In this document: one piece after another, positions 54,493 to 64,000 of the stretch
How positions within the stretch are numbered: the stretch's first letter is position 1
Layout of the letters: each line of letters begins with the position of its first letter
Assembly (NCBI RefSeq): GCF_000949135.2
Contig: NZ_JTAN02000021.1
Span: 372,001 to 436,000, forward strand
Length of the DNA: 64,000 nucleotides
Source: Burkholderia sp. USMB20
Lineage (GTDB): Bacteria > Pseudomonadota > Gammaproteobacteria > Burkholderiales > Burkholderiaceae
Direction: 5' to 3'
Made by a program: the position numbers and the translations under genes
Notes under the pieces: generated by a model
Databases searched by the model: none
What the model was told of the DNA's origin: nothing
Seen by the model: only the letters and a program-made list of their open reading frames with translations

Positions 54493-54526
54493 CGTATCGC
54501 GCGTCGCCGGCGCACTCAGAACTTGT
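54481..54526. repeat. Right 46-bp direct repeat flanking the islet
   Basis: Partner of 50755-50800 (43/46 identical). It covers the porin C-terminus codons, stop and downstream hairpin half. The unit between the two copies is about 3.7 kb. Confidence 0.75.
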
Positions 54527-55775
54527 GCCGCAGCCCGAGCGCGACCACGACCTGGTTGCTGTTCGCCGACGGCGTCATGGTCCAGACGGTCGCGTTGAAC
54601 GCGGGGTTGCCGTTGCCGCCGCTCACGCTTTGATAGACGGCTTCGAGATACGCGTCCGTGCGTTTCGAGAATGCGTAGTCCGCCTGCGTGACCACCTGGT
54701 TCCATTTCGGGCGCGTCTGGCCCGTGCGCGTGTCGAAACGCCCCATCGTGTACGTGTACGCAGCGGCCATGCTGAACGCCGGCGTGACGAAGTAGCGGCC
54801 GTCGACCGTGAAGTTGTCGAACACGAGCGATTCACCCTTCAGCGGGGTGATGCCGCTGCCCTGGAGCACGCCGCTCACGCCGTCGGTGGCCGAGTGCGAC
54901 CATGCGGCACCGACCGAATGCGGGCCGAACGCATAACGGCCGGCCAGGGCCCAGATCTGCTGGTTGCCGCCCGTGATCGTCGCCGAGCCGTCGAGCGTGC
55001 TCAGTGCGCCGTCCGGATTCGGCGCGTTGCGGTCGCGGCTGATCTTCAGGTAACCGGCGCCGAGCTTCAGCGGCCCGTTCGCATACCCGAGCCCCGCGCT
55101 CCACACGGCGTTGTTCGAGAACGCGCCGGCCGTGTTCGAGAATCCGAACATCGCGCCGAGCGTCAGCCCGCGATACGTCGGGCTCGTGTACTTCACCGCA
55201 TGGTTGATGCGCAGGTTGCGGTTCGAGTCGTCGTTGTCGTACGGATGCACCGCGAGGTTGCCGCCCCAGCCGGGGCCCGACGCACCGAGCGGCGTCACGA
55301 AATCGAGGATCAGGTCGTACTGGCGGCCGAACGTGAGCGTGCCGGCCGTCCGCGAGCTCAGGCCGAGCCACGCCTGACGGCCGAACAGGTCGACGCCTTT
55401 CTGCGACAGCTTGCCGGTCGTGCCCGAGAAGCCGTTCTCGAGCGTGAAGACCGCTGCCGTCCCGCCGCCGAGATCCTCGCGACCGCGCACCCCCCAGCGC
55501 GACGCGTTCAACGCACCGCTCGTCATTGCGACGCTGCCGCTGCCCGGCGAACCGGCGCCTTGCGTACGCTGGTTGGTCGCATAGGTGATCGACGTATCGA
55601 TCAGGCCGTACAGCGTCACGCTGCTCTGTGCTCGCGCGACGCAGGGAATCAGGAAGCCGGCCGCACAGGCGGCAATCACGCTCAGCGGGAGCGCACCGGT
55701 ACGACGGCCGCGGCGGGCGGCAAGCGGCACGGCGACGCGCGCGCCGGCGGGCTTGGCTGTTTTATAGGAATGCAT
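54516..55775 (-). CDS. Gram-negative trimeric porin (OpcP/Omp32 type)
   Basis: A 419-residue beta-proteobacterial porin. The signal peptide is unusually long (about 49 residues, basic and Pro/Ala-rich) before mature QSSVTLYGLIDTSITY. Features include the N-terminal strand, SRWGVRGREDLGGGTAAVFTLENGF, and the conserved C-terminal strand ending LRHKF, the BAM-recognised terminal Phe. It starts at ATG 55775 with a weak A-rich ribosome-binding site. It forms outer-membrane diffusion channels for small solutes. Its 3' end shares the direct repeat with the AraC gene. Confidence 0.92.
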   Translation of the reverse strand: MHSYKTAKPAGARVAVPLAARRGRRTGALPLSVIAACAAGFLIPCVARAQSSVTLYGLIDTSITYATNQRTQGAGSPGSGSVAMTSGALNASRWGVRGREDLGGGTAAVFTLENGFSGTTGKLSQKGVDLFGRQAWLGLSSRTAGTLTFGRQYDLILDFVTPLGASGPGWGGNLAVHPYDNDDSNRNLRINHAVKYTSPTYRGLTLGAMFGFSNTAGAFSNNAVWSAGLGYANGPLKLGAGYLKISRDRNAPNPDGALSTLDGSATITGGNQQIWALAGRYAFGPHSVGAAWSHSATDGVSGVLQGSGITPLKGESLVFDNFTVDGRYFVTPAFSMAAAYTYTMGRFDTRTGQTRPKWNQVVTQADYAFSKRTDAYLEAVYQSVSGGNGNPAFNATVWTMTPSANSNQVVVALGLRHKF

Positions 55776-56344: not shown

Positions 56345-59300
56345 ATGGTGTTGATGGCTGTGGGCGGGGGCGGACCGGTGAACGTGCCGCAGCCGCAGGA
56401 TGACAACGATCCGGCACCGACGAACGGGGCCGGCAGCACCCCGCCGGCGCAGACGCCGGAACAGCAGGCCCTCGCGGCCGCCCAGGCCGAGACGCAGCGC
56501 CTGCTGCAGCTCGCGCAGGCCGAAATGGCGACACTCAAGCGCCTGCACGACCAGGGCGCGTCGCAGGCCGATCTCGACAACCAGGTGAAGAAGGCCGAAG
56601 CGGCATGGGGCTCGGTGCAGGCGGCCGTCGAGAACCAGATGCGCGTCGCGGCCGACGGCGGCGGCGACACGAACAAGGCGATCGCGGGCGTGGCCTCGGA
56701 TCTGCGCAATGCGACGCCGAACGATCCGGTGCTCGGCTCGGTGCTCGACGATGCGCAAAAGGCGGTGTCGGCCGAATCGGCGCCCGAGCGGGCGACCAAC
56801 GTGAAGGCGTTCCAGTTCGCGCTGGCGATGCAGAAGGACCAGGCCGCGAACGCCGACGTGAAGCAGTACGACGCGCTGCCGGGCGGAATCCGGCGCGCCG
56901 ATCCCGACACCGGCGTGCAACTTCGCCAGGCGGCCGGCACGGCCGACACGAATGCCAACAACGCGTACACGGCCCTCACCACCGCGTTGCGCCACGAGTA
57001 CAGCACGTCGGCCGCGACGCTGCGCCTGAACGACGCGAAGGCCGACTACGCGGCGTGGCAGAAGGAGCCGGGCGGATTGCGCCGTGCCGACGAGGCCGAC
57101 GTCACGCAGGCGCTGGCGCAGGCGCAGAGCCAGTACGACAAGGTCGTGACGGGCGGCGACGACACCGCACTGACCTACGTGACGGCCGACGAGCAGAAGC
57201 AGGTCGTCGCGTCGGTGAAGCAGAATCACGACGGCATGTGGTACACCGGCCTCGTCGACGCGCTGGGCGAGGAAAGCCAGCTCAAGCGCACGATCGCGAC
57301 GATCAATCCCGACGATCCGTCGCTGTCGCCGCAGATGAAGCAGCTCGCGCAATCCGATCCGGTCACGTTCGCGCTGTTGCAGGACACCGGTGTGACCGTC
57401 GATCCGAACGATCCGAAGCTGTCGCCGCAGGAGAAGGCGCTCGCGCAGCAGAATCCGCTCGCGGAAGCGTTCGTCAAGCTGACAGGCGTTCCGGTGAGCA
57501 CCGACGGCAAGAGCGACGCGGACGCGAAGGCGCTGAACGCGCAGATCGACCAGGCGGGCGGCGTGTTCGCGTACGCGATGGCGCAAGCGCAGGCGGACAA
57601 GAACAATCCCGGTTACCAGAAGATCCAGACGCTGCTTGCGGCGGCGCCCGAGGTGCGGCTGCAGTACACGAAGCAGCAGGTCGCGCAGCTGATGCAGGGC
57701 CCGGGCAGCAATCCCGGCGCGGCGCTCCAGGTGCTGAAGACCAACATGGACGCGTCGTTCTCGCTCGACGAGCGCCAGACGCTGTGGACCCAGGCCGGCC
57801 AGCCGCATTTCGACGCGAAGTTCATCCATTCGCAGATCGATCCGCTGATGCAGAAGCCCGATGCGGATGCAACGGATCAGGCGAGCATGCGTGCGCGTTA
57901 CGACGACACGATGAACGCCGACAAGGCCGGCAAGTGGATGCAGGACATCCTGAACAATGCGCCGCCCGAGTTCGCGGGCGTCGTGCTCGATACCGTCGAG
58001 CACGATTTCGGCAACAAGTGGATGCAGACGAACACGGGCACGCCGCAGCCGTACGGGCAAGGCACCGAGTTCTACAAGGGGCTCAGCAAGGCGGTCGGGC
58101 TGGCGGACCAGCAGCCGACCGCGAGCGGCGTGCCCGTGCGGCGCGAGGACGACGTCGCGAACTGGCTGCTTGACGACAAGGGCAACGCGAAGACGCTGAT
58201 CTACACGCTGCGCGGCAGCAACACCGGCTACGGTTTCGACACGGTGCGCGAGGCGCTGTCGTCGGGTGTCGATCCGGCGCTGTCGAAGGCGCTGCTGTCG
58301 AAGATGCAGAACGACGACCGGTTCCAGGCGGGCTTCGCGAACGACTTCAAGCTGCGTTACGACCAGGGCACCAAGAGTGCGCAGAACAAGCAGAACAAGG
58401 ACGCCGCCAACGCCAGCTACAAGCTGTTCCAGGCCGATCCGGACAAGCAGCTGAACGCGTATTTCGACGACTTCCAGAAGAACTTCGACGACAAGTCCTA
58501 CACGTTCACCACCGGCTCCGACCAGATGACGAACTTCGTCGGCGCGGGGCTCGGAATCCAGCCGGACGATCCGGCCGCGATGCCGACCGACCGGAACGAC
58601 GTGCCGTCGATGGCGATGCTCGAGCAGTTGATCGTCGGCAACGGGCAGTTGCAGAACGGTGTGGCGGTCAACAGTCGGTCGCTGTACGCGAGGAATTCGG
58701 CGGCGGCGCAGATGATCCAGACCGTCGTCGACCAGATCCGCAAGGTCGGCGGCGACCACGCGGTCGTGTCGTTGGTGCCGATCTACTACGTGTCGAAGGG
58801 GACGGGTACCGCGCCGAGCGCATTGTTCAAGGTGCAGGTCGCGAACCATCCGGACCAGTTCAAGCTGATCGACGATCGCGGCTGGAAGTACGACACCGTC
58901 GACGACTACCAGCACAACAACGCGCTGTCGGACGACGGCAAGCTGTACGTGCCGAAGAGCCTGACGAACGGCTCGGCGGCCGGCGGTTACGCGCAATACG
59001 AATCGATCGACGCACACAAGACGGAGTGGTACCAGCACGTCGAACACTATCTCGAGATCGGCACGGGGATTCTCGCCGCGGCCGGCGGTGTCGTGCTGGT
59101 CGCGAGCGGCATCGGTGCGCCGGTCGGCGGCCTGATGCTCGGCGCCGCGTGGACCGCGGTCGGCGCCGGGATGGCGGTCGGCGTGCCGGCCGCGATCGGC
59201 GACCTGAACAATCTGAGCGAGCACGGGCAGTCGATCGGCTTCGACAATGCGCAGGCGCGCGGCGACTGGATCAGCCTGATCGGCAGCGGCGCGGGCATCG

Positions 59301-62300
59301 CGGGCGGCGGGCTCGGCGTCGCGGCGAAGTCGCTCGCGGAGGCGTCGTCGCTGCTGCGCACGACGGGGCAGGTCTCGGACATGGTCACGCTGGCATCGCG
59401 CGGCGAGGGCGTGACGGCCGACGTGGCCGGTCTCGGCCGTTTCGCGCAGGAAGCCGATGCGTTCCAGTCGGTCGCGCAGACGACGGGCCGCACGGCCGGC
59501 GTGCTCAACGTCACGGGCGGCGCGATCGGCGGCTATCAGATGGTCGACCAGGGCGTGTCGCTCGTGAAGAACTGGGACGCGATGACCGATTCCGATCGCG
59601 CGCAGCAGTTGCTGAACCTCGGGATCGGCGTCGCGCAGATGGGCCTCGGCTCGCATACGCTGATGGAACGGCCGATTCGGGCGATCACGAAGACGCCGCC
59701 CCCCCGCGACGCAGCGGCGATCGGATCGCGTGGACGCGATGTTCGCAACGGCTGGCGAACCAGCGCCTCGCGTCGCGAGATCGGACAACCCGTGGCAGCA
59801 CGCCGAGGAACAGGCGGCCACTTCGGCGAGCCGCCGCGACGGCGAGCCGGTGTCGCCGGCGGAAGCGGCTGCGTCGCCTTCCCGCTGCTGCCGCGCGCCG
59901 CACGCAGGGCAAGCCGGACGACGCGACGCGATCCTGCTCGGCTCGCGCGATGCCGAAGGGATCGACGGCGAAGCGACGCCGCCGTTTCCGCCGCGATCGC
60001 GGGCGATGATGCGACGCCGGCCGGCGCCGGCACGCCGGTAACGGCGGGACGCCCCGCGTCGTGGCCCATTCCCGCGCATGTGGCGGCCGATCCGGACGCG
60101 CTGGCCGGCGTGGTCGGGTCGATTCTCGACAGCGGCAACCGCCTCGAGGACGTCGAATACTACGTGTACGCGCTGGAGGACGGCGAAGGGAACGTGCGCA
60201 AGCCGGACGAGGACGGACTCTCCTCGACCGAACGCGGCAACCTGGGGGACGACATCCGGGCGGCGAACGCGGACGCGCGGCGCGCGGCAGCCGGAGACGA
60301 TCCGGTGAAGCTCGCGGCCGCCGCCTCCAGCGAGGACGGCACGATCGGCGTCACGCGTTACGCGTCGTTCCACGACGCGATGATGGTCGCCCGCGGCGGC
60401 GTGGCGGCGGGCCGCTACCAGGTCGCGCTGGTCGACCACGGCGCGCTCGCCGCGGACGGTACGGTGCCGCCCGAAGCGGTGGTCGCCCGGGTCGGGCTCA
60501 ACGACGCCGGCGACGCGCTGATGCTGTCGATGAACGACGCGTACGATCGCACGCTGCGCGTGATGTACCCGCGCGGGTTCGATCCCGCCAAGCCGCTGAT
60601 CCGCAGCGAGGATGGCCGGCGCGTCGACGTGATCAACGCGCCGCCCGGCATGGACGAAACGCAATGGGGCGCGTATCCGCGCCGCGAAGCCGACCTCGCA
60701 ATCTATTCGAACCATCCGGACCAGCCCGAGAACCGGCTGCCGGCGGGCGAGCGGCCATTGATGCCGGTGCCGCCCGGCTACTTCGCGGTGTACGCGCATG
60801 CGTGGTCCGAAGCGTTCGCGAGTGCGACCGGCAAGCCGATGAGCGCGGAAGACCTGGCCGAGCTGGTGCGCCAGAGCGGCTGGGACGGTAAATCGCCGGT
60901 GATCCTCTATGCATGCGGCGCGGGTACGCGGGTGAGCCCGCTCGCGCAACTGCTCGCGAACGTGCTGGGGGTGGACGTGTACGGCGCAAGCGGCTTCGTC
61001 GCGTGGCGCTCGCCGCGATATCGCAGCGACGGCAGCCCGGACTCCGGCTATACGACCGGCATCGTGGTGGAGCCCGGCGCCCCCAGTCTCGCGGGGAGGC
61101 CGGACCATTCGGTGCAGCATGCGCCGCGCACCTACCGCTTCTCGCCGGCGCTGGCGGTCATCGACCAGGGCGCGCACGCGGTCGACTGGAGCACCGTGGC
61201 GCCGCGCCCGGTGTCGAATCGCTGGGGCGGCAGCGGCGCGTCGGGCGACGCGCGCGTGCCGCTCGGCGTCTACGTCTGGCGCGTGCTGACGAATCGCGGC
61301 GGCGCGGTCATCAATCCGCGCAGCCGCCGCCCGGCGAGCGCGCTCGAGATGACCCACGCGCTGGAGGAACTGGCGTGGAAGGGCTATACGCCGGGCACGC
61401 CGATCGCGCTGGAGGGGCCGCACAGCGGCGCCGATCCCGAATTGCTGCAGGAATTCGCGGACCTGATCCAGGCGCCGGTGTTCGGCCGGCTCGGCGACGA
61501 CGACGCGGCCGGCTGGCGGCGCGCGATCCCCGATCCGGGCCGCCGGCTCGCGCGCTTCCAGATCGAACCCGACGTGAACGGCAAGTTCTCGCCGGGCCGC
61601 GCGCAGCCGGTTCGCGTCAATCCGCTGGAATTGCGGCCGGTGCCGGGCTCGAATGTCGTGAACCTGCTGGGCCACGCGACCGCGCGGCAGTTCCTGAAGG
61701 TGTCGGGCTTCGACATCGCCGAATCGCATGGCACGAAGCCGCGCGACGTGCGCTGGGACAGCGCGATCGCCATCACGAAAGACGGCAACACGATGTCGCC
61801 CAGGGAATTCGCGCGCAGCCTGCTCGAGGATCCGGCCTACACGGAAGGTAACGGCGTGCTGCTGACCGGCTGCTATCTCGGCTCCGGCGGCTACCCGTTC
61901 GCGCAGGAGCTCGCGTATGAACTTCAGGTGCCCGTGATCGCGTCGATCGCGTCCAATTCGATACGCGGCACCGGCGCGCTGGAACTGCACCCGAACAGCG
62001 ACGACATCGTCGTGCCGGCACACGATCCGGATGTGTCGACGCGGCTCTACCTGCATATCCCGGAGGCGCCCGACGCGAACGAACCGCCGCTGGTGTTCGC
62101 CCGGCGCGGCGAACCCGTGCAAGGCGCGGTGGCGCACGGGTACGACGGCGCGCCGGTCGAACCGGTGCGCCCGATCGACGCGCAGATCGATCCGGACGCC
62201 GACAGCGGGCGGCGCGGCAACACCGGCACGCCGGGCGATGCCGCGCGGCCGGGTGCGACGGCACATGGGCCGGCCCAGCCGCAGCCCCGCGCGCATCCGC

Positions 62301-64000
62301 GTCTCGCGCCGGAGCCGGACGCGGGCGAGCCGCCCGTCGACGAGCCGGTTCCGGTCGTCGACGTGGCGCCGGGGCAGATCTTCACGGCGGACGAGTGGGC
62401 CGCGCGCACCGAGCAGGCCGCCGAGGCCGAAGCCGACGACGGCCTGTCGGGGATTCCGCAGAAGACGTACCGGAACAACAGCCGCGTCTATACGGACCGC
62501 ACGATCGCCAACGACGGCGTGATGACGACGACGATTCGCGGCGAGTCGGTACTGCAACCGGGCTTCGACGACGTGACCGGCGTCGACGCGACGCAGCACC
62601 CCGAATTCCTGCGTCCGGCCGACACGCTTTTGATGCCGGCCGGCGACCCGCTGCATCCGGTCGGCGCGCGCGGGCTGATGTCGCCGCCGGGCCATCACGT
62701 CGTGTTCGGACACGGCATGTCGGCCGATGCGATGCTCGGCCCGGAAGGCCGGCCGGTGACGCCGGACGAGGTGGCCGAGCGTGTCGCGCCGCAGCTCGAG
62801 GCAGGGCAGGACGTGACGCTGTATTCCTGTTTCGGCGGGTCGGACAAGCACGATCCGTTGCGCGTCGCGCCGGGCCAGGTGCGGGCCGCGAGCGGGACGT
62901 TCGCGGCCGCGCTCGCGCAGCGGCTGTCCGAACTCACCGGGCGGCCGACGTCGGTCTGGGCGCCGCAGGACATCCTGCTCGTCAAGCCGGACGGCTCGGC
63001 CACCGTGCGCGTGACGCGCCGGACCGGCGAGGTCGACAGCGACCGCCTGCCGATGCAGCGCTTCGTCGGCGACCCCGCGCGGGCGGGCCGCCCGGCACTG
63101 CCCGCCGGACCGGACGCGGAGCCGGCACCGAGCGCCGCGCATACGGCGCCGCCGCCACGGGCCGAGCGGCCGGCGCGTCCGACGGTGCCGCGCGTGCCCG
63201 ATCCGACGTTCGCCGATCCCGGCTACGACTTCACGCCGATTCCGGACGGCACGTTCGAATCGGTCACGCTCGACCATCCGTTCCGCAGCGCGCTGGCCGA
63301 CCGGCCGGGCGTGATCGGCGATGCCGCGCGCGTGACGCAGGCCGGCGGCACCGTGAGCCAGCACTGGCCGAGCTATTTCCTCGACGGACCCGAGCCGACC
63401 CGTGTGATCGACGACGTGATGCAGGCGTTCGACGCGGCCGGCCTGACGAACCTGCGCGTCGAATTCGTGACGGGCGACGGCAGCATCGTGCTCGGCAGCG
63501 GCACCGATTTCGGCGCGCTCGATCCCGAGGCGGGCTGGTTCCGGTTCAGCGGCACGGTGCCGGACGCCGCGGCGTCGGCAGCGCACGCGACGGGCCGCAC
63601 GGCCGCCGAAACGCGGCGCGCGTTGCCGGACGGCGTGACGACGGTCGCGCACGACGATCTCGGGCAGGCGCTCGATGCGGCGCAAGCCGGGCCGCGCAAT
63701 CACGCGTACGTGCCGGCCGATGCGCTGCCGGACGACGCCGCGTTCGCGCAGGGCGACCTGACGCCGGCGGAACGCGTCGCGGCCAGCGCCACCGCGCACC
63801 TGGCCGCGGTCGAGGCCGCCGCGCCGACCGACGTCGTGCTGCTGTCGGCACTCGGCCACGATCCGGCAAGTGCGCTGCGCATCACCACGCCCGACGGCGG
63901 TTCGCTGTTCAAGCCGGCCGGCGTCGACATGTACGTCGTGCGCACCCGCGACGCGGCGACGGGCGACGTGTCGTACCGGCTCGTCGGCGTCGATCGTTCC
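56345..64000 (+). CDS. Giant multidomain protein, probable polymorphic-toxin/effector-like (3' end outside window)
   Basis: One frame is open from ATG 56345 (GGGAGA upstream) to the window end, 2552 codons. Residues 15-45 are Pro/Gln-rich and 50-125 helical and Gln/Ala-rich. Residues about 750-880 (VVSLVPIYYVSKGTG, DDYQHNNALSDDGKLYVP) recall the DUF4781 type from memory. Residues 904-954 are strongly hydrophobic and Gly-rich. Four or more repeated modules follow. Module 1 (about 1477-1570) has H1485 and C1524; module 2 (1642-1715) has lost both; module 3 (1795-1880) keeps only C1843; module 4 (2115-2225) has GHG (H2123) and SC (C2162). Two modules thus keep a 39-residue His-Cys spacing, like C80/CPD cysteine peptidases. 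Residues 1120-1215 look shifted in frame. It lacks a recognisable signal peptide. Confidence 0.82.
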   Translation, partial: MVLMAVGGGGPVNVPQPQDDNDPAPTNGAGSTPPAQTPEQQALAAAQAETQRLLQLAQAEMATLKRLHDQGASQADLDNQVKKAEAAWGSVQAAVENQMRVAADGGGDTNKAIAGVASDLRNATPNDPVLGSVLDDAQKAVSAESAPERATNVKAFQFALAMQKDQAANADVKQYDALPGGIRRADPDTGVQLRQAAGTADTNANNAYTALTTALRHEYSTSAATLRLNDAKADYAAWQKEPGGLRRADEADVTQALAQAQSQYDKVVTGGDDTALTYVTADEQKQVVASVKQNHDGMWYTGLVDALGEESQLKRTIATINPDDPSLSPQMKQLAQSDPVTFALLQDTGVTVDPNDPKLSPQEKALAQQNPLAEAFVKLTGVPVSTDGKSDADAKALNAQIDQAGGVFAYAMAQAQADKNNPGYQKIQTLLAAAPEVRLQYTKQQVAQLMQGPGSNPGAALQVLKTNMDASFSLDERQTLWTQAGQPHFDAKFIHSQIDPLMQKPDADATDQASMRARYDDTMNADKAGKWMQDILNNAPPEFAGVVLDTVEHDFGNKWMQTNTGTPQPYGQGTEFYKGLSKAVGLADQQPTASGVPVRREDDVANWLLDDKGNAKTLIYTLRGSNTGYGFDTVREALSSGVDPALSKALLSKMQNDDRFQAGFANDFKLRYDQGTKSAQNKQNKDAANASYKLFQADPDKQLNAYFDDFQKNFDDKSYTFTTGSDQMTNFVGAGLGIQPDDPAAMPTDRNDVPSMAMLEQLIVGNGQLQNGVAVNSRSLYARNSAAAQMIQTVVDQIRKVGGDHAVVSLVPIYYVSKGTGTAPSALFKVQVANHPDQFKLIDDRGWKYDTVDDYQHNNALSDDGKLYVPKSLTNGSAAGGYAQYESIDAHKTEWYQHVEHYLEIGTGILAAAGGVVLVASGIGAPVGGLMLGAAWTAVGAGMAVGVPAAIGDLNNLSEHGQSIGFDNAQARGDWISLIGSGAGIAGGGLGVAAKSLAEASSLLRTTGQVSDMVTLASRGEGVTADVAGLGRFAQEADAFQSVAQTTGRTAGVLNVTGGAIGGYQMVDQGVSLVKNWDAMTDSDRAQQLLNLGIGVAQMGLGSHTLMERPIRAITKTPPPRDAAAIGSRGRDVRNGWRTSASRREIGQPVAARRGTGGHFGEPPRRRAGVAGGSGCVAFPLLPRAARRASRTTRRDPARLARCRRDRRRSDAAVSAAIAGDDATPAGAGTPVTAGRPASWPIPAHVAADPDALAGVVGSILDSGNRLEDVEYYVYALEDGEGNVRKPDEDGLSSTERGNLGDDIRAANADARRAAAGDDPVKLAAAASSEDGTIGVTRYASFHDAMMVARGGVAAGRYQVALVDHGALAADGTVPPEAVVARVGLNDAGDALMLSMNDAYDRTLRVMYPRGFDPAKPLIRSEDGRRVDVINAPPGMDETQWGAYPRREADLAIYSNHPDQPENRLPAGERPLMPVPPGYFAVYAHAWSEAFASATGKPMSAEDLAELVRQSGWDGKSPVILYACGAGTRVSPLAQLLANVLGVDVYGASGFVAWRSPRYRSDGSPDSGYTTGIVVEPGAPSLAGRPDHSVQHAPRTYRFSPALAVIDQGAHAVDWSTVAPRPVSNRWGGSGASGDARVPLGVYVWRVLTNRGGAVINPRSRRPASALEMTHALEELAWKGYTPGTPIALEGPHSGADPELLQEFADLIQAPVFGRLGDDDAAGWRRAIPDPGRRLARFQIEPDVNGKFSPGRAQPVRVNPLELRPVPGSNVVNLLGHATARQFLKVSGFDIAESHGTKPRDVRWDSAIAITKDGNTMSPREFARSLLEDPAYTEGNGVLLTGCYLGSGGYPFAQELAYELQVPVIASIASNSIRGTGALELHPNSDDIVVPAHDPDVSTRLYLHIPEAPDANEPPLVFARRGEPVQGAVAHGYDGAPVEPVRPIDAQIDPDADSGRRGNTGTPGDAARPGATAHGPAQPQPRAHPRLAPEPDAGEPPVDEPVPVVDVAPGQIFTADEWAARTEQAAEAEADDGLSGIPQKTYRNNSRVYTDRTIANDGVMTTTIRGESVLQPGFDDVTGVDATQHPEFLRPADTLLMPAGDPLHPVGARGLMSPPGHHVVFGHGMSADAMLGPEGRPVTPDEVAERVAPQLEAGQDVTLYSCFGGSDKHDPLRVAPGQVRAASGTFAAALAQRLSELTGRPTSVWAPQDILLVKPDGSATVRVTRRTGEVDSDRLPMQRFVGDPARAGRPALPAGPDAEPAPSAAHTAPPPRAERPARPTVPRVPDPTFADPGYDFTPIPDGTFESVTLDHPFRSALADRPGVIGDAARVTQAGGTVSQHWPSYFLDGPEPTRVIDDVMQAFDAAGLTNLRVEFVTGDGSIVLGSGTDFGALDPEAGWFRFSGTVPDAAASAAHATGRTAAETRRALPDGVTTVAHDDLGQALDAAQAGPRNHAYVPADALPDDAAFAQGDLTPAERVAASATAHLAAVEAAAPTDVVLLSALGHDPASALRITTPDGGSLFKPAGVDMYVVRTRDAATGDVSYRLVGVDRS
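59699..59705 (+). repeat. C7 homopolymer at apparent frame slip in giant gene
   Basis: Seven C in a row. Upstream, frame A (from 56345) has normal codon bias. Just after, frame A becomes Arg-rich while the next frame reads typical residues (EPAPRVARSDNPWQHAEEQ) until about 59985. Removing one C would join the two. Confidence 0.55.

Follow-up and report, generated by a model that had tools for sequence, protein, structure and literature searches.

The locus and the giant gene

The stretch of DNA considered here (referred to throughout as the window; 64,000 nucleotides from Burkholderia sp. USMB20) runs at its end into a very large gene, the features of which are collected in Table 1. The start of this gene has been placed at the ATG listed there because a Shine-Dalgarno-like sequence before it (GGGAGAA) and the coding sequence that follows are both conserved in 13 out of 13 aligned sequences, i.e. 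those of the window and of 12 genomes. The nearest orthologue, that of genome G001, has a frame of about 4120 residues whose C-terminal end is a LysM-like LWXIA domain (E 2e-32); the corresponding part of the window gene lies beyond position 64000. DUF4781 is the Pfam match in the frame (it is below cut-off in two related giants), whilst the module region discussed below has no Pfam match, an NCBIfam scan of the window part of the giant returned none, and inspection of the N-terminus (MVLMAVGGGG) revealed no evident signal peptide.

The six named relatives of the window sequence are all Burkholderia and include B. catarinensis, which belongs to the B. cepacia complex by taxonomy. The giant gene adjoins porin-like, P450 and AraC genes rather than occupying the asnB–sctR interval, which is the position of the family of giants found at the injectisome locus (see below), and its nearest neighbours in the window offer no clue as to secretion. 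Downstream of the giant in G001, the first frames of at least 150 codons are on the opposite strand, with the exception of one that overlaps the transporter-like gene. The sequence TTCG-N16-TTCG, which we take to be the hrpII promoter box of type III secretion system (T3SS) effectors, is absent from the 400 bases upstream of the window giant; among 13 upstream regions of giants one alone (L045) has any, and in the window as a whole there are 3 occurrences as against 4.76 expected by chance. As a separate point, in a low-conservation linker of the giant (window positions 59690-60007) the frame differs over part of its length from that of G001, the overall frame being kept; this may represent either natural change or sequencing error.

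Table 1 Features of the giant gene and its divergent neighbour, in window positions.
Feature	Position	Strand	Remarks
Porin-like gene	54516..55775	-	label by inspection; divergent neighbour of giant, marks window-type site
Giant protein gene, 5' part	56345..64000	+	ATG 56345; 2552 stop-free codons up to window end
DUF4781 match	58865..59431	+	Pfam E 1.1e-11, over cut-off
Hydrophobic Gly/Ala-rich stretch within DUF4781 match	about 59051-59152	+	found in G001; window position set by eye
Module M1	60698..61087	+	P0001 aa 1691-1820; profile comparison
M1 histidine (YAHAW), H1485	60797..60799	+	
M1 cysteine (LYACGAG), C1524	60914..60916	+	spacing 39
Module M2, degenerate	61235..61498	+	Leu/Pro at the two sites
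Module M3	61685..62050	+	profile comparison
M3 histidine (FDIAESHG), H1795	61727..61729	+	
M3 cysteine (LLTGC), C1843	61871..61873	+	spacing 48
Module M4	62654..62995	+	profile comparison
M4 histidine (FGHG), H2123	62711..62713	+	
M4 cysteine (LYSC), C2162	62828..62830	+	spacing 39

The repeated modules

A preliminary description of this DNA had seen in the giant four segments sharing one caspase-fold-like pattern (M1 to M4 in Table 1). That there is an internal repeat is borne out for M1, M3 and M4, as are the frame and the residues in question: when the M1 and M4 regions of the giant family were compared by BLASTP, E-values between 0.008 and 5e-6 were obtained (against a small database), and the profiles of these two modules, each module profile being built from 13 orthologous sequences, matched at 94% (E 1.4e-7). 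Direct profile comparison is moderate for M1 with M3 (45%, E 2.2e-4) and weak for M3 with M4 (21%, E 1.1e-3). All three match an outside profile, called here the Rhs-tip profile and built from seven sequences (five Rhs-type tips, one Rhodococcus plasmid protein and one phage head protein), the figures being 98.2% for M1 (E 5.7e-14), 97.5% for M3 (E 7.4e-12) and 96.9% for M4 (E 1.5e-10). When this same profile was compared with 200 windows of 130 aa spanning the protein, E-values below 1e-3 arose solely in those overlapping M1, M3 or M4. Judged from these profiles, M1, M3 and M4 are homologous to one another and to the Rhs-tip module.

M2 fits the pattern less well than had been described. Its comparison with M1, M3, M4 or the Rhs tips gives next to nothing (0.15-7%), and the Rhs-tip profile alone does not recognise it (E 0.015 and 0.047 in two runs), although a combined profile from which M2 was itself excluded does so (69%, E 4e-5, the next non-module region being at E 2e-3). 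It appears to be a decayed module, weakly recognisable as such. E-values for the modules from iterated HMM searches have not been counted as proof, because iteration draws the modules into their own profile.

As regards the two putative catalytic residues, the pairs claimed for M1 (H1485/C1524, with HAW in place of HG) and M4 (H2123/C2162) are indeed in place, both 39 apart, and M2 does lack both, having Leu and Pro at these sites in 13 of 13 sequences. The third module, on the other hand, had been said to lack the His, which proves to be mistaken: H1795 lies 48 residues before C1843 (47 in three of the 13 sequences; residue numbers here and in Table 1 follow the preliminary description), so that three of the four modules keep both residues, and M1, M3 and M4 each do so in every one of the 13 orthologous sequences. 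Among more distant giants, M1 and M4 pairs at spacing 39 are found in two and an M4 pair in a third. Over the 82 module instances available from the window and its first relatives, 52 have both residues, 5 have Cys only, 1 has His only (in an instance truncated at the edge of its contig) and 24 have neither.

Identity of the module

No window module matches Peptidase_C80 (PF11713) in Pfam, a PDB sequence search with the module gave no significant match, and PDB sequence searches with other parts of related giants yielded nothing usable. What similarity there is to described families comes by way of relatives. DUF4347 (PF14252) has a comparable layout (SHG...LYGCDVG), its differences being that it occurs in other proteins, has about 43 residues from His to Cys and has no assigned function; it matches the Rhs-tip profile at 93% and the single modules at 78% (M3), 57% (M4) and 34% (M1). 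When four of the 14 sequences in the DUF4347 profile were scanned, all four showed DUF4347 over cut-off and two also showed Peptidase_C80 weakly (E 0.0044 and 0.0084). In relatives of the module family, Peptidase_C80 scores run from 5e-4 to 0.13, below cut-off. Ten sequences of one alignment (A4) gave DUF4347 in three cases (best E 6e-3) and C80 in two (best 5e-4), and in reading such values it should be borne in mind that the unrelated vATP-synt_AC39 also matched one of the ten, at E 4.5e-4.

The resemblance to the C80/CPD domains of large toxins, to which the preliminary description had pointed, is nonetheless the best reading available, in that the His again comes before the Cys and weak Pfam matches are reached through relatives; what does not stand is any direct match, since these scores are below cut-off and come from relatives, and the window spacings are 39 or 48 where those of CPD are about 45-49. 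A conserved His and Cys in two strand-end motifs, as in clan CD, are found in M1, M3 and M4 and not in M2, the strands being predicted ones. By this chain of weak links the best guess is that the module is a clan-CD (caspase-like) thiol peptidase, and M1, M3 and M4 are probably cysteine peptidases.

In papain-like enzymes, the Cys precedes the His. The cysteine protease toxin Cpe1 was considered as a possible relative and rejected, being papain-like according to a portion of PMC12136450.

Occurrence of the module outside the giants

In other Burkholderiaceae, and in E. coli, Rhs proteins have the same module as their C-terminal tip (HG...LLSCNTG); it is the same by profile (97-98% for M1, M3 and M4), the difference being that it is present there as a single copy at the Rhs protein C-terminus. 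Tip DNA of two E. coli types was compared with 5426 genomes, the first type matching 3493 of them (3347 over at least 80% of the query) and the second 405 (369 over at least 80%). At both of the E. coli loci that were inspected (L130 and L131) the Rhs gene is marked incomplete and is followed by a sel1-repeat gene. The module and this following gene (L130 3571-5000, where the latter is yibG; L131 3003-5065) represent a candidate toxin-immunity pair. On an IMG/VR contig (L099 930-2282) the module is fused at the C-terminus of a phage minor head protein.

Both the Rhs tips and the phage head protein would be toxin positions in the sense used in passages of Zhang et al. (2012; PMC3482391). The same passages describe arrays of caspase-like domains within one toxin, some copies being without catalytic residues, and suggest structural or binding-type roles for these dead copies. 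A chain of active and degenerate modules in one protein, thought unusual in the preliminary description, is thus something already in print. The likeness is that several such domains occur in one giant toxin, some of them non-catalytic; it is a likeness of description, and the published example comes from Streptomyces and has ADP-ribosyltransferase and MCF domains.

When alignment A4 was run across the class at E 1e-4, G001 alone of 369 genomes matched, so that the module is rare at that sampling, and a phylum-wide search with alignment A1 gave matches in 25 of 398 genomes, many of them DUF4347-like by eye.

Related giants and the injectisome

The injectisome (T3SS) of the Burkholderia cepacia complex was named BCI by Wallner et al. 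(2021), and the relevant portions of that paper (PMC8565462) describe it as almost ubiquitous in the complex and as containing a LysM gene of more than 10 kb, with a transglycosylase also described at the locus. In part of PMC12580581, a B. cenocepacia T3SS-cluster protein with HopBF1, DUF4781 and SEC10 is described (WP_321175898). Like the window giant it is a very long protein that contains DUF4781 and is associated with T3SS clusters; it differs in having a gene of 6,637 bp and, in that part of the paper, no reported caspase-like module, the likeness being again one of description.

Nine LWXIA giants were compared with the window-type giant of G001 (a tenth locus, L113, yielded no frame). 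Six of them are Burkholderia giants at the BCI locus, with asnB and SctU adjoining (L107-L109, L111, L115, L116); L114 is an unlinked Burkholderia giant, L110 belongs to another genus and lies 9 kb from SctJ, and L112 belongs to a third and lies 22 kb from SctJ. In eight of the nine (all but L112, and including the six at the BCI) the C-terminal third shares 37-45% identity with the G001 giant, the similarity being confined in L107-L109 to the last roughly 1000 residues, and the N-terminal part shares 26-33%; L112 shows matches of 25-27%, in other parts. Taken by themselves, the six giants at the BCI locus, the place of the large LysM element of PMC8565462, are similar in the N-terminal part (26-29%) and in the C-terminal third, ending in LWXIA (37-39%, in three of the six over the last roughly 1000 residues only), and the family co-occurs with the same injectisome. 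The window type differs from them in its position away from the BCI locus, in a middle of its own with three His-Cys modules, and in having no kinase-like motif.

The kinase-like motif in question, a glycine loop of the form LLGxGxxKTVF, is found in the middle of six of the nine giants (L107-L111 and L115), in several cases after a degenerate caspase-like stretch, and in none of the window-type giants. With the combined profile a module-like stretch is detected in a group comprising L111, L114 and L115 (93%), in another comprising L107, L108, L109 and L116 (80%) and in L110 (80%), whereas the Rhs-tip profile alone detects one in the first of these groups only, and weakly (33%). Six module-like stretches were picked up by iterated HMM in L111, L115 and L116, with Cys at the expected place in none and HA near the His site in four. 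The same holds across the six Burkholderia BCI giants, where the recognisable modules are degenerate, with no Cys at the expected place and several keeping HA (register by eye in both instances). L112 has one module-like stretch with Cys only and one with neither residue.

Intact modules are found in two distant giants that lie beside T3SS genes. One, at L055, has two such modules, ends in LWXIA and adjoins SctQ and SctR, with a piece of SctU 2.8 kb on; the other, at L056 (genome G220), adjoins SctR and a transglycosylase-like gene (match below cut-off), and has no LWXIA match, though its end is LysM-like by eye. Since the modules of the Burkholderia BCI giants examined are degenerate, the family as a whole cannot depend on peptidase activity. 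Its essential function must lie in the shared ends, and peptidase activity would be an addition in the window type and in giants like that at L055.

Across 299 Burkholderiaceae genomes, at least 33 of the 64 LWXIA loci over cut-off are within 25 kb of a listed SctJ. In a mixed sample from the family a T3SS was found in 23 of 25 giant-bearing genomes as against 117 of 274 others, the comparison being made by a Fisher test; the groups in this sample were counted by hand, with two Rhs-only genomes placed among the others, and it has been superseded by the full count for the genus.

Distribution within the genus

For that count, 65 Burkholderia genomes (a sample to which the window's own assembly does not belong) were searched for the LWXIA domain, the window module region and a segment of the BCI SctU, the last being called at E 2e-30 or better. 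The BCI is present in 41 of the 65. In 27 of these there is an LWXIA locus 3.2-3.4 kb from SctU (short-framed in two, G1037 and G1038), and 15 have a window-type giant by full-length match, a partial match to M1 in G294 having been left out. The two arrangements very nearly exclude one another: both giants occur in one genome (G253), the window type only in 14, the linked type only in 26, and neither in none. Presence is also tied to the T3SS, in that 15 of 15 window-type genomes carry the BCI, while in the 24 BCI-negative genomes there are no window-type giants and a single LWXIA match (G111, a 695-codon frame). Fisher tests give 1e-16 for any LWXIA against BCI and 4e-10 for window type against linked, both of them ignoring phylogeny. 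The BCI locus was inspected in 10 of the 15 window-type genomes, and in all ten the starts of asnB and sctR are 3.4-3.7 kb apart with no giant between them.

There are also seven LWXIA loci that are unlinked and fall outside the window-type genomes, and an additional one is present in both G259 and G1058, so that at least one further class of giant must exist. As a side observation, further LWXIA giants with frames of about 4560-4577 codons are present away from the BCI SctU in G142, G274, G212, G294 and G1037, alongside a BCI-linked LWXIA locus.

Some genomes carry what may be traces of a giant at the other site. In the window-type genomes G284 and G1058 there are short LWXIA matches, below cut-off and at 3.3 kb from SctU, which are perhaps remnants; that in G284 was not recovered in a tblastn search with the window-type giant. 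Conversely, in the linked-type genome G289 (L132 3563-3745, minus strand) a 65-residue piece of the window-type C-terminus lies beside the porin-like gene, and is 62-72% identical to window-type ends as against 27-47% to the ends of other giants. At the same porin-like site in G200 no trace of a giant was seen.

In a tree of the C-terminal third (midpoint root), the window-type giants form one clade (100/100), which adjoins not the Burkholderia BCI-locus giants but those of G184 and G098, which belong to other genera (86/77 for that pair, 100/99 for the larger group). Given this grouping the window type may derive from another lineage and may have displaced the giant already resident, perhaps on more than one occasion. 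BCI proteins from 14 of 16 loci were also placed in a small tree (L120 and L123 were left out, their SctU not having been picked up). On it, 3 changes are required to account for the window-type label, of which well-supported branches force at least 2; only 3 of the 11 inner branches are well supported, so the swap of giants was probably, though not surely, more than one event.

Interpretation

The best joint explanation would make the giant a partner of the injectisome, with cysteine-peptidase modules that act together with the BCI; taken as a whole, we would give this about an even chance of being correct. The module region would then be the variable middle of a DUF4781/LWXIA giant of roughly 4000 residues that belongs functionally to the BCI, although its gene has a porin-like neighbour and in relatives is a long way from the BCI. 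The giant would be exported through the BCI, or would act with it, and the intact M1, M3 and M4 would cut the inter-module linkers, or a target protein, on meeting an activator, M2 having decayed into a structural module. Such a logic would be analogous to that of MARTX/CPD toxins and of the caspase-like arrays of polymorphic toxins. We infer the caspase-like fold, the peptidase activity, export by the BCI and self-cleavage all from sequence. A more specific version, which is unlikely as it stands, would make the giant a multi-domain BCI substrate that processes itself, with ends that serve for export and an interchangeable middle, kinase-like or tandem-peptidase, that is cut into effectors inside the host. 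Were this true, it would amount to MARTX logic operating via a type III system, with a very large substrate and two giants that substitute for each other.

Among the alternatives, a rather unlikely one is that the modules are no longer peptidases, and instead form a caspase-like scaffold that binds peptides or domains within an injectisome protein of structural or assembly function, the His and Cys being metal- or fold-related. This would suit the 24 of 82 module instances that lack both residues (and the 5 with Cys only), as well as the degenerate copies in BCI-linked giants, and roles of this kind are proposed for dead copies in passages of PMC3482391. It sits less easily with the retention of both residues by three modules in 13 of 13 orthologous sequences, or with the recurrence of the His-Cys pair in Rhs tips, the phage head protein and DUF4347.

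The LWXIA/LysM end of the orthologue, and the below-cut-off transglycosylase-like gene beside SctR in L056 (a transglycosylase being described at the BCI also, in part of PMC8565462), would fit an injectisome accessory on the peptidoglycan side that remains in the envelope, where its peptidase modules would act or would mature the giant itself. That reading is unlikely: the N-terminus has no evident signal peptide on inspection, and a host target is suggested both by the kinase-like motif in six of nine related giants and by the HopBF1/DUF4781 protein described in part of PMC12580581. A final reading, in which the giant is a toxin directed at other bacteria, in the manner of the Rhs proteins with the same module, and is functionally unconnected with the BCI, is very unlikely even though the module is a common Rhs tip and the sel1-repeat neighbour could be an immunity protein, given that no Rhs, CdiA or T6SS part appeared in Pfam and NCBIfam scans, that the G001 frames of 150 codons or more following the giant are (bar one overlapping the transporter-like gene) on the other strand, and that throughout the genus its co-occurrence with the BCI is complete.

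Returning to the injectisome-partnered giant, no description of caspase-like modules in BCI giants, or of the one-or-the-other distribution, was found in the open-licence PMC literature, and those portions of PMC8565462 and PMC12580581 that deal with the BCI or T3SS name no BCI substrate. With a giant at the BCI locus, or substituted elsewhere, in 41 of 41 BCI genomes, the giant is an obvious candidate for a BCI partner. The modules in addition link Rhs tips, DUF4347 and the giant, so that cleavage dependent on the His-Cys pair, if it occurs, would be informative for several unexplained families, amongst them the E. coli tip type whose DNA is matched in 3493 of 5426 genomes.

A minor observation concerns locus L056, where positions 1-1623, near the T3SS-linked giant, hold a relative of the lectin-like bacteriocins (putidacin L1 family, below cut-off).
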